33,068 bases of DNA from Candidatus Amesbacteria bacterium (lineage in GTDB: Bacteria > Patescibacteriota > Microgenomatia > CAZETR01 > Amesbacteraceae). Below, one piece after another: positions 3,026 through 8,373 of the stretch. The notes under the pieces were generated by a model, which did not search any database, was not told where the DNA came from, and saw nothing but the letters and a program-made list of their open reading frames with translations. Position 1 is the stretch's first letter, and each line of letters opens with the position of its first letter. A program made the translations under genes and the position numbers. The DNA lies in NCBI GenBank assembly GCA_016219445.1, contig JACRNA010000023.1, positions 1 to 33,068 on the forward strand, written 5' to 3'.

Positions 3026-3793
3026 TTAGTAATTAATGCCGTAGATTTGACTAAAAATATTTAACCTTTTAATTCCATCAACAGCAGTTAGTCTCGGAGC
3101 AATGCTTCTCAAGTAATTTTCACCTACCCAGTCCACTTCGTGCCATTTTTGTTCAAAGATATTTTGGTCAAAGTTTGTTACCTCTATTTTAAATTTATTT
3201 GGCCCCCAGGCTTTGATAACATTAGTTGAGTGCGCGCATGTAATAATATTACGATGAGTGTCAATATCAAGAATTGAAATTAAATGATGTCCTCCGGCGA
3301 TACTTATAATATCCCCAGGCCTTGAATCATTGATTTTATCAATGGATCTAGCATTTGATTGATTAATAATATCTCTTCCATTAAGTTTCGTTACCCCAGT
3401 TAATTCTTTATTAGATGGTTTAGGCAAAGAAGTCTCAAAATTTAATGCTGTTATAGTTTCGATTGCGTATTGGGTGATATTGTAGACAAAACCGGAGCAA
3501 TCTATCCCCCCACCGATTTCAAAGATAAAATCTCTAATACGCTGTTGTGTGGAACATGATAAATCTAATCCAACTTCAGAAGCTTTTTGATAGACAAAAT
3601 CAACAATCTCCCAAGGCATTCGTTTTCCACCCTTTTGCACAGCCATATAATAAGGAGTTCCAATATATAAATCATCGTGATTCATAAAATATGGACATCG
3701 GACATCATGATTTGCTATGGAAAGATGTAAATAAGCATTAACAATAAAGTCAAACCGTTGTGATATTTGCGTGTTCATTTCCTTACTGTTCAT
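3026..3793 (-). CDS. NlpC/P60-like cysteine peptidase family protein, copy 1
   Basis: The product (255 aa from ATG 3793) has GGGIDCSGFVYN at about residues 94-105 and PGDIISIAGGHHLISI about 60 residues later. These are the catalytic Cys (in DCSGF) and His positions of the NlpC/P60 papain-like fold, which hydrolyses peptidoglycan stem peptides or related amides. An upstream CPYFMN motif and the order of blocks are shared with the gene at 3790-4512, so the two are paralogues. ATG 3793 overlaps the upstream TGA as ATGA and is preferred over GTG 3802. There is no signal peptide, so it acts inside the cell or is released otherwise. It may serve as a leader peptidase for the neighbouring RiPP-like operon; this is speculation. 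Confidence 0.65.
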   Translation of the reverse strand: MNSKEMNTQISQRFDFIVNAYLHLSIANHDVRCPYFMNHDDLYIGTPYYMAVQKGGKRMPWEIVDFVYQKASEVGLDLSCSTQQRIRDFIFEIGGGIDCSGFVYNITQYAIETITALNFETSLPKPSNKELTGVTKLNGRDIINQSNARSIDKINDSRPGDIISIAGGHHLISILDIDTHRNIITCAHSTNVIKAWGPNKFKIEVTNFDQNIFEQKWHEVDWVGENYLRSIAPRLTAVDGIKRLNIFSQIYGINY

Positions 3794-4512
3794 ATTTGCC
3801 ACCTGAATCTATATATCCCATCTCCTTGACTAGAATCAAAGTATATATGGCCGTATTTTTTGTATTCCTTAGTTTTTTCTAGCCAACATTGGTGATCCAG
3901 ACCGAGATTTGGATCAATAATTTTTATTTTTCCCAAATGTACCCCGTCTAATTGAGAGGTTAGAGAACTAGAATGGACATAAGTTAATATTGATCGGCTT
4001 ACTACAGTAATGAAAAATATGTGTTTTCCTCTATTTAATCTAATTAAATCTCCGGGTTTAGCGTGAGCAACTTTTATAGGACGTGCATTTTTGATATTTG
4101 TTAAGAATTCTGCATTACATCTCCAAGCATTTCTCCAGGAGGGTAATTTTGAATCGGGAAAGAATTTTTTGGCCAGACTAAATCCATACTTTTCTATGTT
4201 TAACCTATCTGACAGATGATAAGCCAATCCAGAACAATCAATGCCGATTCTATTATTTTTCATAAATACAGAGAGAGCTGTTTTTGTTGAGTTGATTACA
4301 TCAAGTCCATGTTTTTTTGCGCAAAGTTTGATAGCATGAATTATTTGTTTGGGAGTGCCTTTTCCAGAATATGGCCCCTTAATATTTTTTGGTAAATCAT
4401 TCATCCAATAGGGACAATTGATAAGACAGTTTCCAATTTTAAGATACAGATAATTATCCAAGAGTTTTTGTGTTTTTTGGGGTAATACAGTTAAATTTGT
4501 AAGCTTTTTCAT
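3790..4512 (-). CDS. NlpC/P60-like cysteine peptidase family protein, copy 2
   Basis: About 240 aa from ATG 4512. NRIGIDCSGLAYHL holds the predicted nucleophile Cys, and KPGDLIRLNRGKHIFFITVV the predicted His. NCPYWMND plus GKGTPKQII near the N-terminus parallel the CPYFMN and MPWEI segments of copy 1. No signal peptide. Transcribed first of the pair and coupled to copy 1 by an ATGA overlap. ATG 4512 is preferred to GTG 4530 because TGATAAAAT ends 8 nt before it, the leaderless arrangement seen elsewhere here. The two genes are the only ones reversed within the R1-punctuated region. Confidence 0.65.
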   Translation of the reverse strand: MKKLTNLTVLPQKTQKLLDNYLYLKIGNCLINCPYWMNDLPKNIKGPYSGKGTPKQIIHAIKLCAKKHGLDVINSTKTALSVFMKNNRIGIDCSGLAYHLSDRLNIEKYGFSLAKKFFPDSKLPSWRNAWRCNAEFLTNIKNARPIKVAHAKPGDLIRLNRGKHIFFITVVSRSILTYVHSSSLTSQLDGVHLGKIKIIDPNLGLDHQCWLEKTKEYKKYGHIYFDSSQGDGIYRFRWQI

Positions 4513-4520
4513 TTTGTGTA

Positions 4521-4529
4521 ATTTTATCA
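4521..4529 (-). promoter_or_regulatory. Extended -10 of the NlpC-like pair
   Basis: Minus-strand TGATAAAAT, 8 nt before ATG 4512. It lies about 20 bp from R1 copy C. Confidence 0.4.
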
Positions 4530-4548
4530 CATTTCCACAAATTTAAGA

Positions 4549-4595
4549 CCTATAGTCATACTCACCCAATATGTATTGCCCCACTAGACTCAAAG
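4549..4595 (+). repeat. R1 interspersed repeat, copy C (degenerate right end)
   Basis: It begins with CCTATAG and keeps ACTCACCCAATATG and TATTGCCCCACT, but the right end reads AGACTCAAAG instead of TGACCTATAG. It sits between the promoter of the reversed NlpC pair and the RiPP-like operon. Confidence 0.75.
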
Positions 4596-4612
4596 AATTA
4601 AAATGGCACAAA

Positions 4613-4681
4613 ATGCTTAACAAACCTGAATATAGGTTACTTTTGGAATTGTCGAAAGAAGGTGAATTACATGATAAGTAA
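4613..4681 (+). CDS. Possible 22-aa ORF or remnant ahead of the RiPP-like peptide
   Basis: A short frame opens MLNKPEYRLLLELSKEGE and overlaps the next ORF by 11 bp. PEYRLLLEL recalls the beginning of nucleotidyltransferase-type proteins found near PqqD genes, so it may be a truncated remnant. It may equally be a chance ORF. Confidence 0.2.
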   Translation: MLNKPEYRLLLELSKEGELHDK

Positions 4682-4811
4682 AGCCAAAGAAGTTATTATT
4701 GATATAATAGTTAGGGAATCAAGTCCAAAAGCAGAAAAGCTAAAACCCTACGAAACGGGTAATATAAAGAGACGTGTATTGGGAGATTTATTTCTTTTTA
4801 GAGTAGATTAG
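4671..4811 (+). CDS. 46-aa peptide, candidate RiPP precursor or leader-only peptide
   Basis: Starts at ATG 4671 behind GAAGGTGA and ends 12 bp before the RRE gene. The C-terminal half reads KPYETGNIKRR then VLGDLFLFRVD. Lasso precursors carry a leader of the form YxxPxLxxxG, a few residues and Thr, then the core. Here Tyr27, Ile32 and LGD at 37-39 can be laid on that pattern, but the peptide stops where a core would begin. If cut before Gly38, the product would be nine residues from Gly1 to Asp9, a length that matches a lasso ring but leaves no tail. Position and pattern suggest a substrate; no direct evidence. Confidence 0.45.
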   Translation: MISKAKEVIIDIIVRESSPKAEKLKPYETGNIKRRVLGDLFLFRVD

Positions 4812-4823
4812 ACAGAGTAACTT

Positions 4824-5114
4824 ATGCGACTAAATACGAGTAAAAGTCACGCAAGTGTTTTGTTTTGTCCGTTAATTGACAAGGTAAATGATTACAACAC
4901 CATTGTTTATAATGTCAATTCAAATACAAACCATAAAGTTAATAGTTTTGGGTATTTCATTTTAGAAATTGTTGAAAATAATCCTGGAATTTCTCTTGAT
5001 GATTTAGTAGATAAATATAGTCGCAAGGTTGGGAAACCAATATGGAAAATTAGAAATCAAGTCGAAAGTTTTGTCAAGGAGATGATGCGAGAAAATATCG
5101 TGCTGATTGATTAA
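4824..5114 (+). CDS. PqqD-like RiPP recognition element protein (lasso B1-like)
   Basis: The 96-residue protein fits the PqqD fold: an N-terminal strand pair (SVLFCPLIDKVNDYNTIVYN), a turn leading to VNSFGYFILEIVE, then helices with ISLDDLVDKYS and a C-terminal VESFVKEMMREN. The hydrophobic-G-hydrophobic segment followed by an acidic helix is typical of RRE domains that bind leader peptides. It directly precedes the cyclase-like gene with 3 bp between, as B1 and C genes do in lasso clusters. A separate transglutaminase-like B2 protease is not found in this block. Confidence 0.75.
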   Translation: MRLNTSKSHASVLFCPLIDKVNDYNTIVYNVNSNTNHKVNSFGYFILEIVENNPGISLDDLVDKYSRKVGKPIWKIRNQVESFVKEMMRENIVLID

Positions 5115-5117
5115 ATT

Positions 5118-6752
5118 ATGACTCAAGAGCTCAACAATTATTTATTCTTGAATCTTTCTAAAGATTTATTAATTACAGCCAAATCGACTTCTCAAATAAT
5201 CCCTCATATTAAGATTCCAAACAGACAATTCCCCAGACCCTTTTTCGTATATGACGATAAATTCATTTGTGCTGGATATTTTTTGTCTTTTGAGGAAGAG
5301 ATATTAAATGATCAGATATTTGAGATGTGTATAAATGGGCGTTGGAAGGAATTGGCAAATAAAATTGCCGATTTTATTATTATCTTTATTGATTGCACTA
5401 GTCACAAGCTTAATATTCTGACTAGTCATTCAGGAAAGTTCCCTTGTTTTTATTCTATTGAGAATAATCAAATAATTATATCCACGAGCTTTCATTTGGT
5501 GGACGAAAATCTTAAAAATAGAACTTTAGATATTGGAGAAGCTGTGGAACTTTTAACTTGGAGCCAAGCAGTATATCCGAGAGAAGAGACACTCTACAAA
5601 CAGATTAGACAGTTACCGCTTGCGACATTATTGACTATTGATAATAATTTTGCTGTTACCACGGAACCATTACTTGTGATTGAAGAAATATTGGAGAATG
5701 GAAGATCGTCGTTATTTTTAGACGAAAAAGATTTTATTGATGAATTTGTACGTACAATAAAAGTAGTTATGAATAATTACTTGAAAACAATTGAAGGTGT
5801 CGAATTTTCCACAGATCTGTCATCTGGCTTTGACAGTAGTCTAGTGACTTATTGGCTGCAAAAATTAACTCACCGGCATTTTTCCTGTCACTCAATGTTT
5901 TCACCACTTATTTATGAAGATTCTGATCCAGAAATTATTAATAAATTTTCAAAGATGCATGGTTTAAAGACCAAGTTCATTGATATAACAGAACAATATC
6001 CATTTACAAATCTTGATAAGATAAATAATGCAAAACATGACTTTTATGTCACCGATTATGCATTAGAAAAAGTATCGCATGCACTTAATTATATTTCCGA
6101 TTCAGGAAAAAAAGAAGTCGCTCTATTTACTGGGCATGGAGGCGATGAACTATTTTATTCTTTTGCCTTAGAAAATACTTTAAGATTTGGAGTTCAACAG
6201 ACATACTTTGATCTGTCAGATTATTCGAAAACCTGGCTAAGTTCAGTATTGACCACAAAAGGTATAGAAATTCTCATGGACAAAAAGAGATTTTTACCAA
6301 AAAGAAATTATCCTTCTCCATCAGCCTATTCAGTGTCAGTTTTGGGCCAAATGTATTTTCCTTTATTTTGGGAATCCGGTGTATGGCCGCTTACCCCCCT
6401 AGATGATCCCAGATTAATAAATGTTTTCAGGAGAATGCCAAAAAGTTTGCAAAGCAAAAAGAATGCTAAGCTAAAATTATGTTCTCTAATGCAAGATGTA
6501 TTTGTCAAAGAACAGTTTGTGCCCAAAGGGGGACCAGATAAACTACGGCATAGATTTTTAATAGAAAAAAAAGATTTGGTCATTACCGTCTTAAAGAAAT
6601 CTATCTTAGGTAATCTGGGTCTTGTAAGAAATTTAGAATTAATTGAAAAACTGGAAAGAAAAGATTCGACTCTTTTTACTGATCTCGCCATCTCCATATC
6701 TCTGCAAGCCTTAATTCAATTGGAAATTTTCCTTCAAAAATCAGACCTATAG
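5118..6752 (+). CDS. Asparagine-synthase-like lasso peptide cyclase (C protein)
   Basis: The 544-residue product has an N-terminal Ntn-hydrolase-like domain without the Cys2 needed for glutamine hydrolysis. The synthetase domain has TDLSSGFDSS at about residues 232-241, the ATP-pyrophosphatase loop that adenylates a carboxylate. A later FTGHGGDELFYS near 336-347 is the second conserved block of asparagine synthases. Loss of Cys2 plus an adjacent PqqD-like gene is the lasso cyclase arrangement rather than AsnB. The final codons GAC CTA TAG lie inside R1 copy D, so the repeat supplies the stop codon. Alternative: an amide synthetase for another peptide or antibiotic. Confidence 0.8.
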   Translation: MTQELNNYLFLNLSKDLLITAKSTSQIIPHIKIPNRQFPRPFFVYDDKFICAGYFLSFEEEILNDQIFEMCINGRWKELANKIADFIIIFIDCTSHKLNILTSHSGKFPCFYSIENNQIIISTSFHLVDENLKNRTLDIGEAVELLTWSQAVYPREETLYKQIRQLPLATLLTIDNNFAVTTEPLLVIEEILENGRSSLFLDEKDFIDEFVRTIKVVMNNYLKTIEGVEFSTDLSSGFDSSLVTYWLQKLTHRHFSCHSMFSPLIYEDSDPEIINKFSKMHGLKTKFIDITEQYPFTNLDKINNAKHDFYVTDYALEKVSHALNYISDSGKKEVALFTGHGGDELFYSFALENTLRFGVQQTYFDLSDYSKTWLSSVLTTKGIEILMDKKRFLPKRNYPSPSAYSVSVLGQMYFPLFWESGVWPLTPLDDPRLINVFRRMPKSLQSKKNAKLKLCSLMQDVFVKEQFVPKGGPDKLRHRFLIEKKDLVITVLKKSILGNLGLVRNLELIEKLERKDSTLFTDLAISISLQALIQLEIFLQKSDL

Positions 6753-6792
6753 TCCTACTCACCCAATATGTATTGCCCCACTTGACCTATAG
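6746..6792 (+). repeat. R1 interspersed repeat, copy D
   Basis: Full 47-bp copy. Its first CCTATAG overlaps the stop of the cyclase-like gene. TATAAT at 6795-6800 follows two bases behind its right end and may start transcription of the hydrolase gene. Confidence 0.9.
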
Positions 6793-6794
6793 TT

Positions 6795-6831: not shown

Positions 6832-7557
6832 ATGAAACAAGAAGCAATTTTGGTACATGGTTGGGATCCAAGATTTTATAATAATCAAATCAAAGAACCT
6901 ATATCAACAGGAATGGCTTGGTCACACAGGCCTGAGTTGATAAAGAGATTAAGGGAGAAATATAATATTTGTTGCTATAATCTACCTGGATTTTGTGGGA
7001 TTAAGGAGCCTAACAAAGATAAATTTTCCGTGGAAGATTTTGTCCAAGACTTTTTTGAATGGAAAGAAAAAAAACACAAAGATGCAAAATTGATGATTGG
7101 TTATTCTTTCGGGGGAGCAATTCTTCTTAGTTATAAGGCAAAATACCACGATTCTACTCCAACCATCTTGATTTCCCCAGCCATATTTAGGAGTGAATCA
7201 AATCGGTCAGAATTGGCAAAACGCCTGAAGCCATTTATTCCAAGCTATTTTGCAGATTACTTTAGACACGTTTATCAATATTTTGTAAGTGAATACTATC
7301 GACGAGGTTCTCCTTTTTTGCGCTCAACTTACAATTCAATCGCTAGAGCGGATCTTCGTCCCTTGTTGAGTAAAGTGGATGTAAATAAACTGTTACTAAT
7401 ATATGGTAAAAATGACGAAGCTACGCCATGGAACTTAGTTAAAGACACGATAAGAGATCATAAGATTAATTGCCATCTTGTCTCAGACGGTGGCCATAGA
7501 ATTGGTCAGACTCATCCAGGCGAGATAATAAAAGCCATTAATGAGTTTTGCGAATAA
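6832..7557 (+). CDS. Alpha/beta hydrolase
   Basis: The 241-residue protein opens with AILVHGWDP (HG oxyanion motif) and has MIGYSFGGAILLSY with the nucleophile Ser in GYSFGG near residues 86-91. An acid follows in LIYGKNDEATPW and the catalytic His is in SDGGHRIGQTHPGE near the C-terminus, so the triad looks complete. There is no signal peptide. The substrate cannot be told. It overlaps the broken Mur-ligase gene by 17 bp, suggesting they were once one unit. Confidence 0.85.
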   Translation: MKQEAILVHGWDPRFYNNQIKEPISTGMAWSHRPELIKRLREKYNICCYNLPGFCGIKEPNKDKFSVEDFVQDFFEWKEKKHKDAKLMIGYSFGGAILLSYKAKYHDSTPTILISPAIFRSESNRSELAKRLKPFIPSYFADYFRHVYQYFVSEYYRRGSPFLRSTYNSIARADLRPLLSKVDVNKLLLIYGKNDEATPWNLVKDTIRDHKINCHLVSDGGHRIGQTHPGEIIKAINEFCE

Positions 7558-8321
7558 GGAAATAGTTGGTCTTGCGGACGAATTGATAATAGAGAACCAT
7601 GTTAGTGGAGATCACCTCTATGATTGGATCGATATCGTCGGAATTACTCAGCGTCCCGAGAAACTCAAGAAATCTTTATATTTTACTACTCACTCAGATG
7701 GAACCGACGGATGGCACAATGCCTTTGATAGACGGCCAATGGCTCAAAATGTGGCTAGAGATAAAGGGTGGCATTTGGCAGTTGAACCTGGAGTGAATGT
7801 TGATAATCATGAACATTTCATTGTTTCCTCATTGATTGGATTGTCTGAAAGACTGTATGAATTTGCAAGAACAAGAAGCAACCCCTATGTTATTGGTGTC
7901 ACTGGTTCTGTAGGAAAAACCACTACCGTGGCATTTCTGGAACATTTGATTCGAGAATCTGGGGTAGGAGTAACTCGTTTTTGGTCTAAGAGGCTGACTC
8001 CTTTACTCGTTCAGTGTCATTATATTAATAGAGTTGATACGAATACTCCATTTATTGTTATGGAATACAGTGCATATGGTAAAGATCATGTTAGTGAATT
8101 AGCTAAAGTGTTACCCCCTAACTTAGCATTTTTTACCAATATTTATGAAATGCATGTGGGCCAGGACTTATTCAAAAGTGAACGAGAAGTTTGTAGACGA
8201 GGAAAAATTTAAAGGGCTGCTAGAAAAAGGAAAAAGCAGTTATTTGGTCTATCACAAAGGGTTGTCTTTACGACAACCAAATTTTGATCCGGCAGAATAT
8301 CTTAAAAATCGCTGGGGTTAA
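7541..8321 (+). pseudogene. Mur ligase-like gene (MurF/MurE type), truncated and probably frameshifted
   Basis: The intact frame (7541-8212, 223 aa) has an N-terminal domain and the P-loop VIGVTGSVGKTTTVAFLEHL at about residues 112-131, then FIVMEYSAYG and LAFFTNIYEMHVG, which match the start of the Mur ligase central domain. It then stops. The +1 frame continues from about 8172 as VNEKFVDEEKFKGLLEKGKS and further to TAA at 8319-8321, with good codon composition, so a one-base indel near 8170 is likely. Even the joined product (about 260 aa) lacks most of the central domain and the whole C-terminal domain of a roughly 450-aa ligase. The end lies 5 bp before R1 copy E. Likely inactive. Confidence 0.65.
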
Positions 8322-8326
8322 CTCAT

Positions 8327-8373
8327 CCTATAGTCCTACTCACCCAATGTGTATTGTCCCACTTGACCTATAG
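8327..8373 (+). repeat. R1 interspersed repeat, copy E
   Basis: Identical over 47 bp to copy F at 16090. Homology with copy F continues beyond the right end through TGATATGAYGCATG and, after a gap, CCAAAAGTGGGGA. Confidence 0.9.

Follow-up and report, generated by a model that had tools for sequence, protein, structure and literature searches.

The window analysed here, 33,068 nt long, is an entire contig (C33) of an 810-kb Candidatus Amesbacteria genome that is 95.5% complete. Three consecutive genes in one direction, A, B1 and C, lie in it between two copies of a repeat, beside a pair of reversed ORFs. The features of the locus are as follows:

3026-3802 and 3790-4530, - strand: two NlpC/P60-like ORFs with a DCSG motif
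4549-4597, + strand: upstream copy of a ~48-nt repeat bounding the operon
4671-4811, + strand: gene A, precursor peptide, 46 aa; an ORF with AAGGTG 5' of its ATG and homologues in G001, G008, Blackburnbacteria (2), Woesebacteria and G002
4716-4736, + strand: leader recognition block E-S-S-P-K-A-E of A; P19 and E22 are invariant in 7 precursors
4767-4808, + strand: predicted core KRRVLGD-LFLFRVD of A, from a gapless alignment, with a putative start
4767-4769, + strand: Lys33 of A
4785-4787, + strand: predicted acceptor Asp39 of A
4824-5114, + strand: gene B1, stand-alone PqqD-like RRE, 96 aa; Pfam PqqD (3.2e-5), AlphaFold2 model matching 5v1v
5118-6752, + strand: gene C, Asn-synthetase-like macrolactam synthetase, 544 aa; Pfam Asn_synthase (2.4e-7), SSGFDSS loop and GGDE motif
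6746-6794, + strand: downstream copy of the repeat, with the stop codon of C inside it

The initial annotation had described these genes as a lasso/RiPP-like operon, and this description holds: the three genes follow each other on one strand, and the PqqD and Asn_synthase matches are both above the Pfam cut-offs. Judged by sequence, the A-B1-C operon is real and its machinery resembles that for lasso peptides. None of the three gene products scored above the cut-off of any lasso-specific sequence model. C reached 27 bits (1.3e-6) against NF033535, the NCBIfam lasso cyclase model, far below its cut-off of 525 bits, while the NCBIfam lasso precursor models gave a single weak match, from the burhizin family, under the cut-off at E 0.02. 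An Rfam search gave no match. Pfam matches of other genes in the window identified toxin-antitoxin, glycosyltransferase and housekeeping genes, which lie outside the RiPP system. Positions 140-2708 hold an AbiEii-type pair (DUF6922, AbiEii) and two tandem HEPN/nucleotidyltransferase toxin-antitoxin pairs; 1785-1957 and 2623-2795, each at the end of a nucleotidyltransferase gene, are 94% identical.

The AlphaFold2 model of B1 (pLDDT 79.5) had as its best match among all PDB chains the TbiB1-leader complex 5v1v, with probability 1.0, TM 0.73/0.78 and an E no better than 5.9e-3; the next matches were PqqD, then TfuB1. By predicted fold B1 is a lasso-type RRE, Pfam PqqD being the sole sequence model whose cut-off it passes. 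C is an Asn-synthetase-like cyclase by its Pfam match and, as first annotated, is without Cys2, the glutaminase nucleophile of asparagine synthetase B. Its residue 2 is Thr, and there was no Cys2 in the family homologues examined. Lasso cyclases are normally without Cys2. The model of C (pLDDT 88.3) was closest in fold to the hydroxyamidotransferase TsnB9, followed by beta-lactam synthetase, carbapenam synthetase and AsnB, and no lasso cyclase was among its structural matches.

A maximum-likelihood tree united the Microgenomates cyclases in a single clade (100/99), apart from AsnB and the Lachnospiraceae cyclases. The RRE-less cyclases of G537 and G558 grouped in this tree with a paralogue encoded in a type IV pilin operon of the window genome (G000:C13, locus L015, 4276-5862). 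This paralogue is accompanied by neither RRE nor precursor and overlaps a prepilin-like gene (N_methyl, 5859-6320); G001:C25 has a pilin-operon paralogue too. The pilin-operon cyclase might cross-link pilins.

These relatives bear on a reading of C in which no ring is made and the Asp of the peptide is joined to another molecule (a protein, a lipid or ammonia). The closest fold match, TsnB9, employs an external amine, and the pilin operon places a related cyclase in the same genome without RRE or precursor. However, C has no glutaminase Cys2 for ammonia, the next fold matches after TsnB9 are lactam-forming, and the conserved short tail and fixed acid of the precursors fit an intramolecular ring. 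We consider an external amine unlikely.

The A-B1-C module was found in nine further Microgenomates loci, from Amesbacteria, Blackburnbacteria, Woesebacteria and others. The gene set and its order are unchanged in G001, of the same genus, and in G008, of the same family, whose cyclases are 58% and 38% identical, respectively. Two copies occur in Blackburnbacteria and others in Woesebacteria and in G002, where the order is C then B1. In a second subfamily (G642, G503, G677:C66) a precursor ending ...AKRGGREPGVHKWGR or similar lies 5' of B1 and C; in a third (G537, G558) a ~50-aa peptide ending ...KSSRYPEGRRPHY or ...KKSRYPEGRMPHY lies directly 5' of C, and there is no RRE. At G677:C33, B1 and C are present and a precursor was not found, while G671:C38 and G673:C2 are decayed copies. 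The distribution is patchy: a narrow profile found the system in 1 of 380 genomes of the phylum, and a broad profile gave strong matches in 11 of 374 genomes of the class. Only C and B1 recurred across most loci in a neighbourhood comparison (which left ORFs <70 aa, such as A, unscored), and an M23-type gene recurred in three neighbourhoods.

No relatives were found in the viral contigs scanned, and plasmids yielded only ~22%-identical Bradyrhizobium proteins amid transposons. The one at L103 4731-6317 is a cyclase-like protein (22% identity), annotated as hypothetical and adjoining an ABC transporter.

The precursor had been annotated as a leader-only or remnant peptide, or else as one with a nine-residue Gly-to-Asp core (GDLFLFRVD). 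Both were rejected on the alignment of seven precursors. Conservation of the 46-aa frame is borne out by homologous ORFs that occupy the same place 5' of the RRE in G001 and G008; between the window and G001, codon positions 1/2/3 of A differ by 0.50/0.33/0.62. Peptide A is not leader-only, because related operons, including those of other genera, have full-length precursors, an outcome that the initial annotation had itself named as refuting. These precursors keep the same leader block and a core in which the position of an acid is fixed, followed by a tail. Conservation falls on the acid D39 (VLG-D) and not on the C-terminal D46.

A gapless alignment of six collinear precursors starts at one invariant Pro. 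Their aligned parts, each with its tail, are PKAEKLKPYETGNIKRRVLGD with LFLFRVD (window), PKAELLKPAEASFVKKEHGRD with LLPNRL, PEVEKLGFEVSSTIKVINPQD with RWLRMS, PTAEILGGMIELGNVKSVLID with ITRYPKATPS, PLAEIIGDVSELTPRKARGKE with VYTIQS and PTVEMLGKIRELNVGKRMNID with RTRYVPLD. Asp or Glu stands at P+20 in 6/6, and a tail of 6–10 residues follows. Permuting, sequence by sequence, the part that follows the leader motif produced an all-acid column across the six with p=2.5e-5 (5e-4 without G001). MAFFT alignment of the full peptides likewise put the acids of these six and of the G002 precursor into one column (n=7). For the second and third subfamilies the register was set by C-terminal alignment and not by the leader Pro; over all subfamilies, ring position 7 is acidic in 11 of 12 precursors, the exception being G677:C66.

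The leader block reads [D/E]xxPx[A/V]E. It retains the Px[A/V] of the lasso RRE-recognition motif, [Y/W]xxPx[L/V/I/A/F/Y] (PMC13381572), and in 6/7 precursors Asp or Glu replaces the aromatic residue at P-3. Since YxxPxL occupies positions −17 to −12 of lasso precursors (PMC10368454), the leader Pro of the six precursors corresponds to −14, core residue 1 would be P+14 and the acid at P+20 would be core residue 7 in 6/6, within the 7–9 residues of lasso rings (PMC8498205). The core of the window precursor is thus probably KRRVLGD-LFLFRVD, as aligned, with Asp39 as the acid and LFLFRVD as the tail. The computed monoisotopic neutral mass of this predicted core (KRRVLGDLFLFRVD) is 1733.010 Da, and that of full-length A 5314.00 Da. 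The Woesebacteria leader PLAEIIGDVSELT has Pro/Gly/Thr at lasso spacing; Thr(−2) occurs in just 2/6 precursors. Core residue 1 would be Lys in the window and Val or Arg in the other precursors. Any of these three is unusual at this position among lasso peptides.

The B2 protease is absent, as had been annotated: Pfam Transglut_core3 has no match in the window genome and none above the cut-off in the 11 cyclase-bearing genomes, where it gave one chance-level match (E 0.07) in a frame interrupted by stops. No protease common to the operon neighbourhoods was found. The two neighbouring ORFs at 3026-4530 had been named NlpC/P60-like and offered as a B2 substitute. The name stands in part, with the DCSG motif in both, but only one of them matches Pfam NLPC_P60, at 13.7 bits against a cut-off of 23. 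As leader proteases they have in their favour that they adjoin the operon and carry a papain-type motif, but they lie on the opposite strand with a repeat copy in between. Furthermore, their homologues are absent from eight genomes with the cyclase system (G001, G002, G008, G694, G677, G642, G537, G558) and present in two (G005, G013) that yielded no cyclase of this family. Because the pair does not co-occur with the operon, it is not the operon's conserved protease, and a role in leader removal is highly improbable.

An M16 peptidase was also considered and rejected. In the first Blackburnbacteria copy (L022 3031-4692) an ORF composed of Nudix, partial nitroreductase and M16_C has the precursor as its in-frame C-terminal part. 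The catalytic N-half of M16 was not found in this ORF, and no other locus has an M16 gene.

The repeat bounding the operon, CCTATAGTCnTACTCACCCAATRTGTATTGYCCCACTTGACCTATAGT, has six copies in the window (1924, 2762, 4549, 6746, 8327, 16090) and one elsewhere in the genome (G000:C13:712), all in constant orientation. The copies flank the HEPN/nucleotidyltransferase pairs, the NlpC/P60 pair, the RiPP operon, and a hydrolase with a Mur ligase fragment. At 7541-8327 a frameshifted Mur ligase-like ORF terminates at a repeat copy. In G001, where the surroundings differ, direct repeats of this family again enclose the operon; those enclosing it in L023, L024 and, in shorter form, G002 are unrelated. 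Alignment scores of the direct repeats at the five loci were 43.8, 34.4, 32.8, 36.0 and 17.8, against shuffle maxima of 13.0–16.6. For the window, G001, G002 and C13 copies, the gene lying before the repeat has its stop codon within the repeat or at it. The presence of direct repeats around the operon in five loci suggests that it moves as a unit. The repeats resemble those of integron cassettes, but an integron was rejected, as no integrase lies near them: none adjoins the repeat array, and the genome's two tyrosine recombinase matches are on other contigs without a repeat copy.

We consider it fairly likely, from sequence and structural models, that A, B1 and C make a ribosomal peptide with one macrolactam in a lasso-like lariat layout. 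The ExxPxAE block in the leader of the 46-aa A would bind B1, the stand-alone RRE, and B1 would present the C-terminal core to C. With ATP, C would activate core residue 7, Asp39, by adenylating its side chain, and would link this side chain to an amine some six residues nearer the N-terminus. The predicted result is a lariat with a ring of about seven residues, possibly threaded by the seven-residue tail LFLFRVD. As no dedicated B2 was found in the genome, either the core N-terminus would be freed by a general cell protease, or the amine would be a conserved Lys side chain and no cut would be made. The ring is probably formed by an unusual route, because the usual leader-cutting protease is absent from the window genome and from ten others with the cyclase.

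The first of these routes gives a lasso peptide proper. A general or unlinked protease would cleave ahead of the core, C would link the freed N-terminus to Asp7, and the product would be threaded. Leader and RRE, both of lasso type, favour this route, as leader spacing, RRE fold and bulky-residue tail all match the lasso layout, and a RiPP pathway is known that pairs a lasso-like RRE with a leader peptidase of another family, the SipW-like LppS (PMC13381572). It has to contend with N-terminal residues K, V and R, a variable leader-to-ring distance and neighbourhoods that share no protease, and we hold it as a tenable possibility short of probable.

In the second route the leader stays on while C links Asp/Glu7 to the epsilon-amine of a conserved Lys, located at position 1 or 2 of the core, making a leader protease dispensable. 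Lys is found at one of these positions in 12/12 precursors across the three subfamilies, compared with an expectation of 22% per sequence, or ~5e-6 if eight lineages are counted as independent. This raises, without proving, a Lys-to-Asp/Glu side-chain lactam. Lys is invariant in the second subfamily, and in the first its placement gave a shuffle p=1.9e-4. Lys and the acid keep a spacing of 5–6, whereas the gap between leader motif and ring is variable, that of G002 being six residues shorter. This enrichment, the variable distance and the absence of B2 from all genomes tested favour the side-chain lactam. On the other hand, the Lys column shifts by one, the lineages are not wholly independent, Lys-rich cores may serve charge or a protease site, and no precedent was found for a lasso cyclase using Lys. 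Closure through Lys is a tentative proposal, and on balance somewhat unlikely.

The split-B1/B2 lasso systems (fusilassin, therbactin, paeninodin type) share with this operon a small precursor, a stand-alone PqqD-like RRE of TbiB1 fold, an Asn-synthetase-like cyclase without Cys2, Pro at −14, an acid at core residue 7 and a short bulky tail. Unlike them, the system here has no B2 found in this genome, no adjoining ABC transporter, an acid for Tyr/Trp at −17, Thr(−2) mostly missing, a Lys-rich core start, and cyclases in a clade of their own. C shares its fold with beta-lactam and carbapenam synthetases, whose chemistry is intramolecular lactam formation but whose substrates are small molecules, with no leader peptide or RRE. 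The linear polyphosphorylated peptides (LPP) of Bacillota also use a lasso-type RRE without the usual lasso enzyme set, but have a SipW-like peptidase and no cyclase, whereas the operon here keeps the cyclase and has no peptidase (PMC13381572). In the open-access literature searched, azole and lanthipeptide clusters are the RiPPs described from CPR bacteria (PMC7298704). The LAP (YcaO) clusters among them are likewise RiPP biosynthesis in Microgenomates, but use azole chemistry and no Asn-synthetase-like cyclase (PMC7298704). YcaO and ThiF genes of a LAP-type cluster adjoin the second Blackburnbacteria operon (L023 8112-10420, - strand). We found no description of lasso-type clusters in CPR, Patescibacteria or Microgenomates in the open-access literature, though descriptions may exist elsewhere.

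Taken together, sequence and models give a conserved operon, a fixed acid, a lasso-B1-type RRE fold, a lactam-synthetase-type fold for C and the absence of B2. On these grounds we read the operon as a new form of lasso-type RiPP biosynthesis that lacks the protease, with a predicted product. The fullest form of the proposal, a Microgenomates RiPP family that makes a Lys-to-Asp/Glu macrolactam on a leader-bearing precursor, protease-free, from a ~2.2-kb repeat-bounded mobile cassette, is speculative and rather unlikely in its entirety; if true, Lys side-chain closure would be a new mode of action for a lasso-type cyclase. In lasso-type biosynthesis, by definition, the leader is cut off first and the ring closed afterwards, and a conserved family with leader, RRE and cyclase but no protease asks whether the cyclase may act on the uncleaved precursor.
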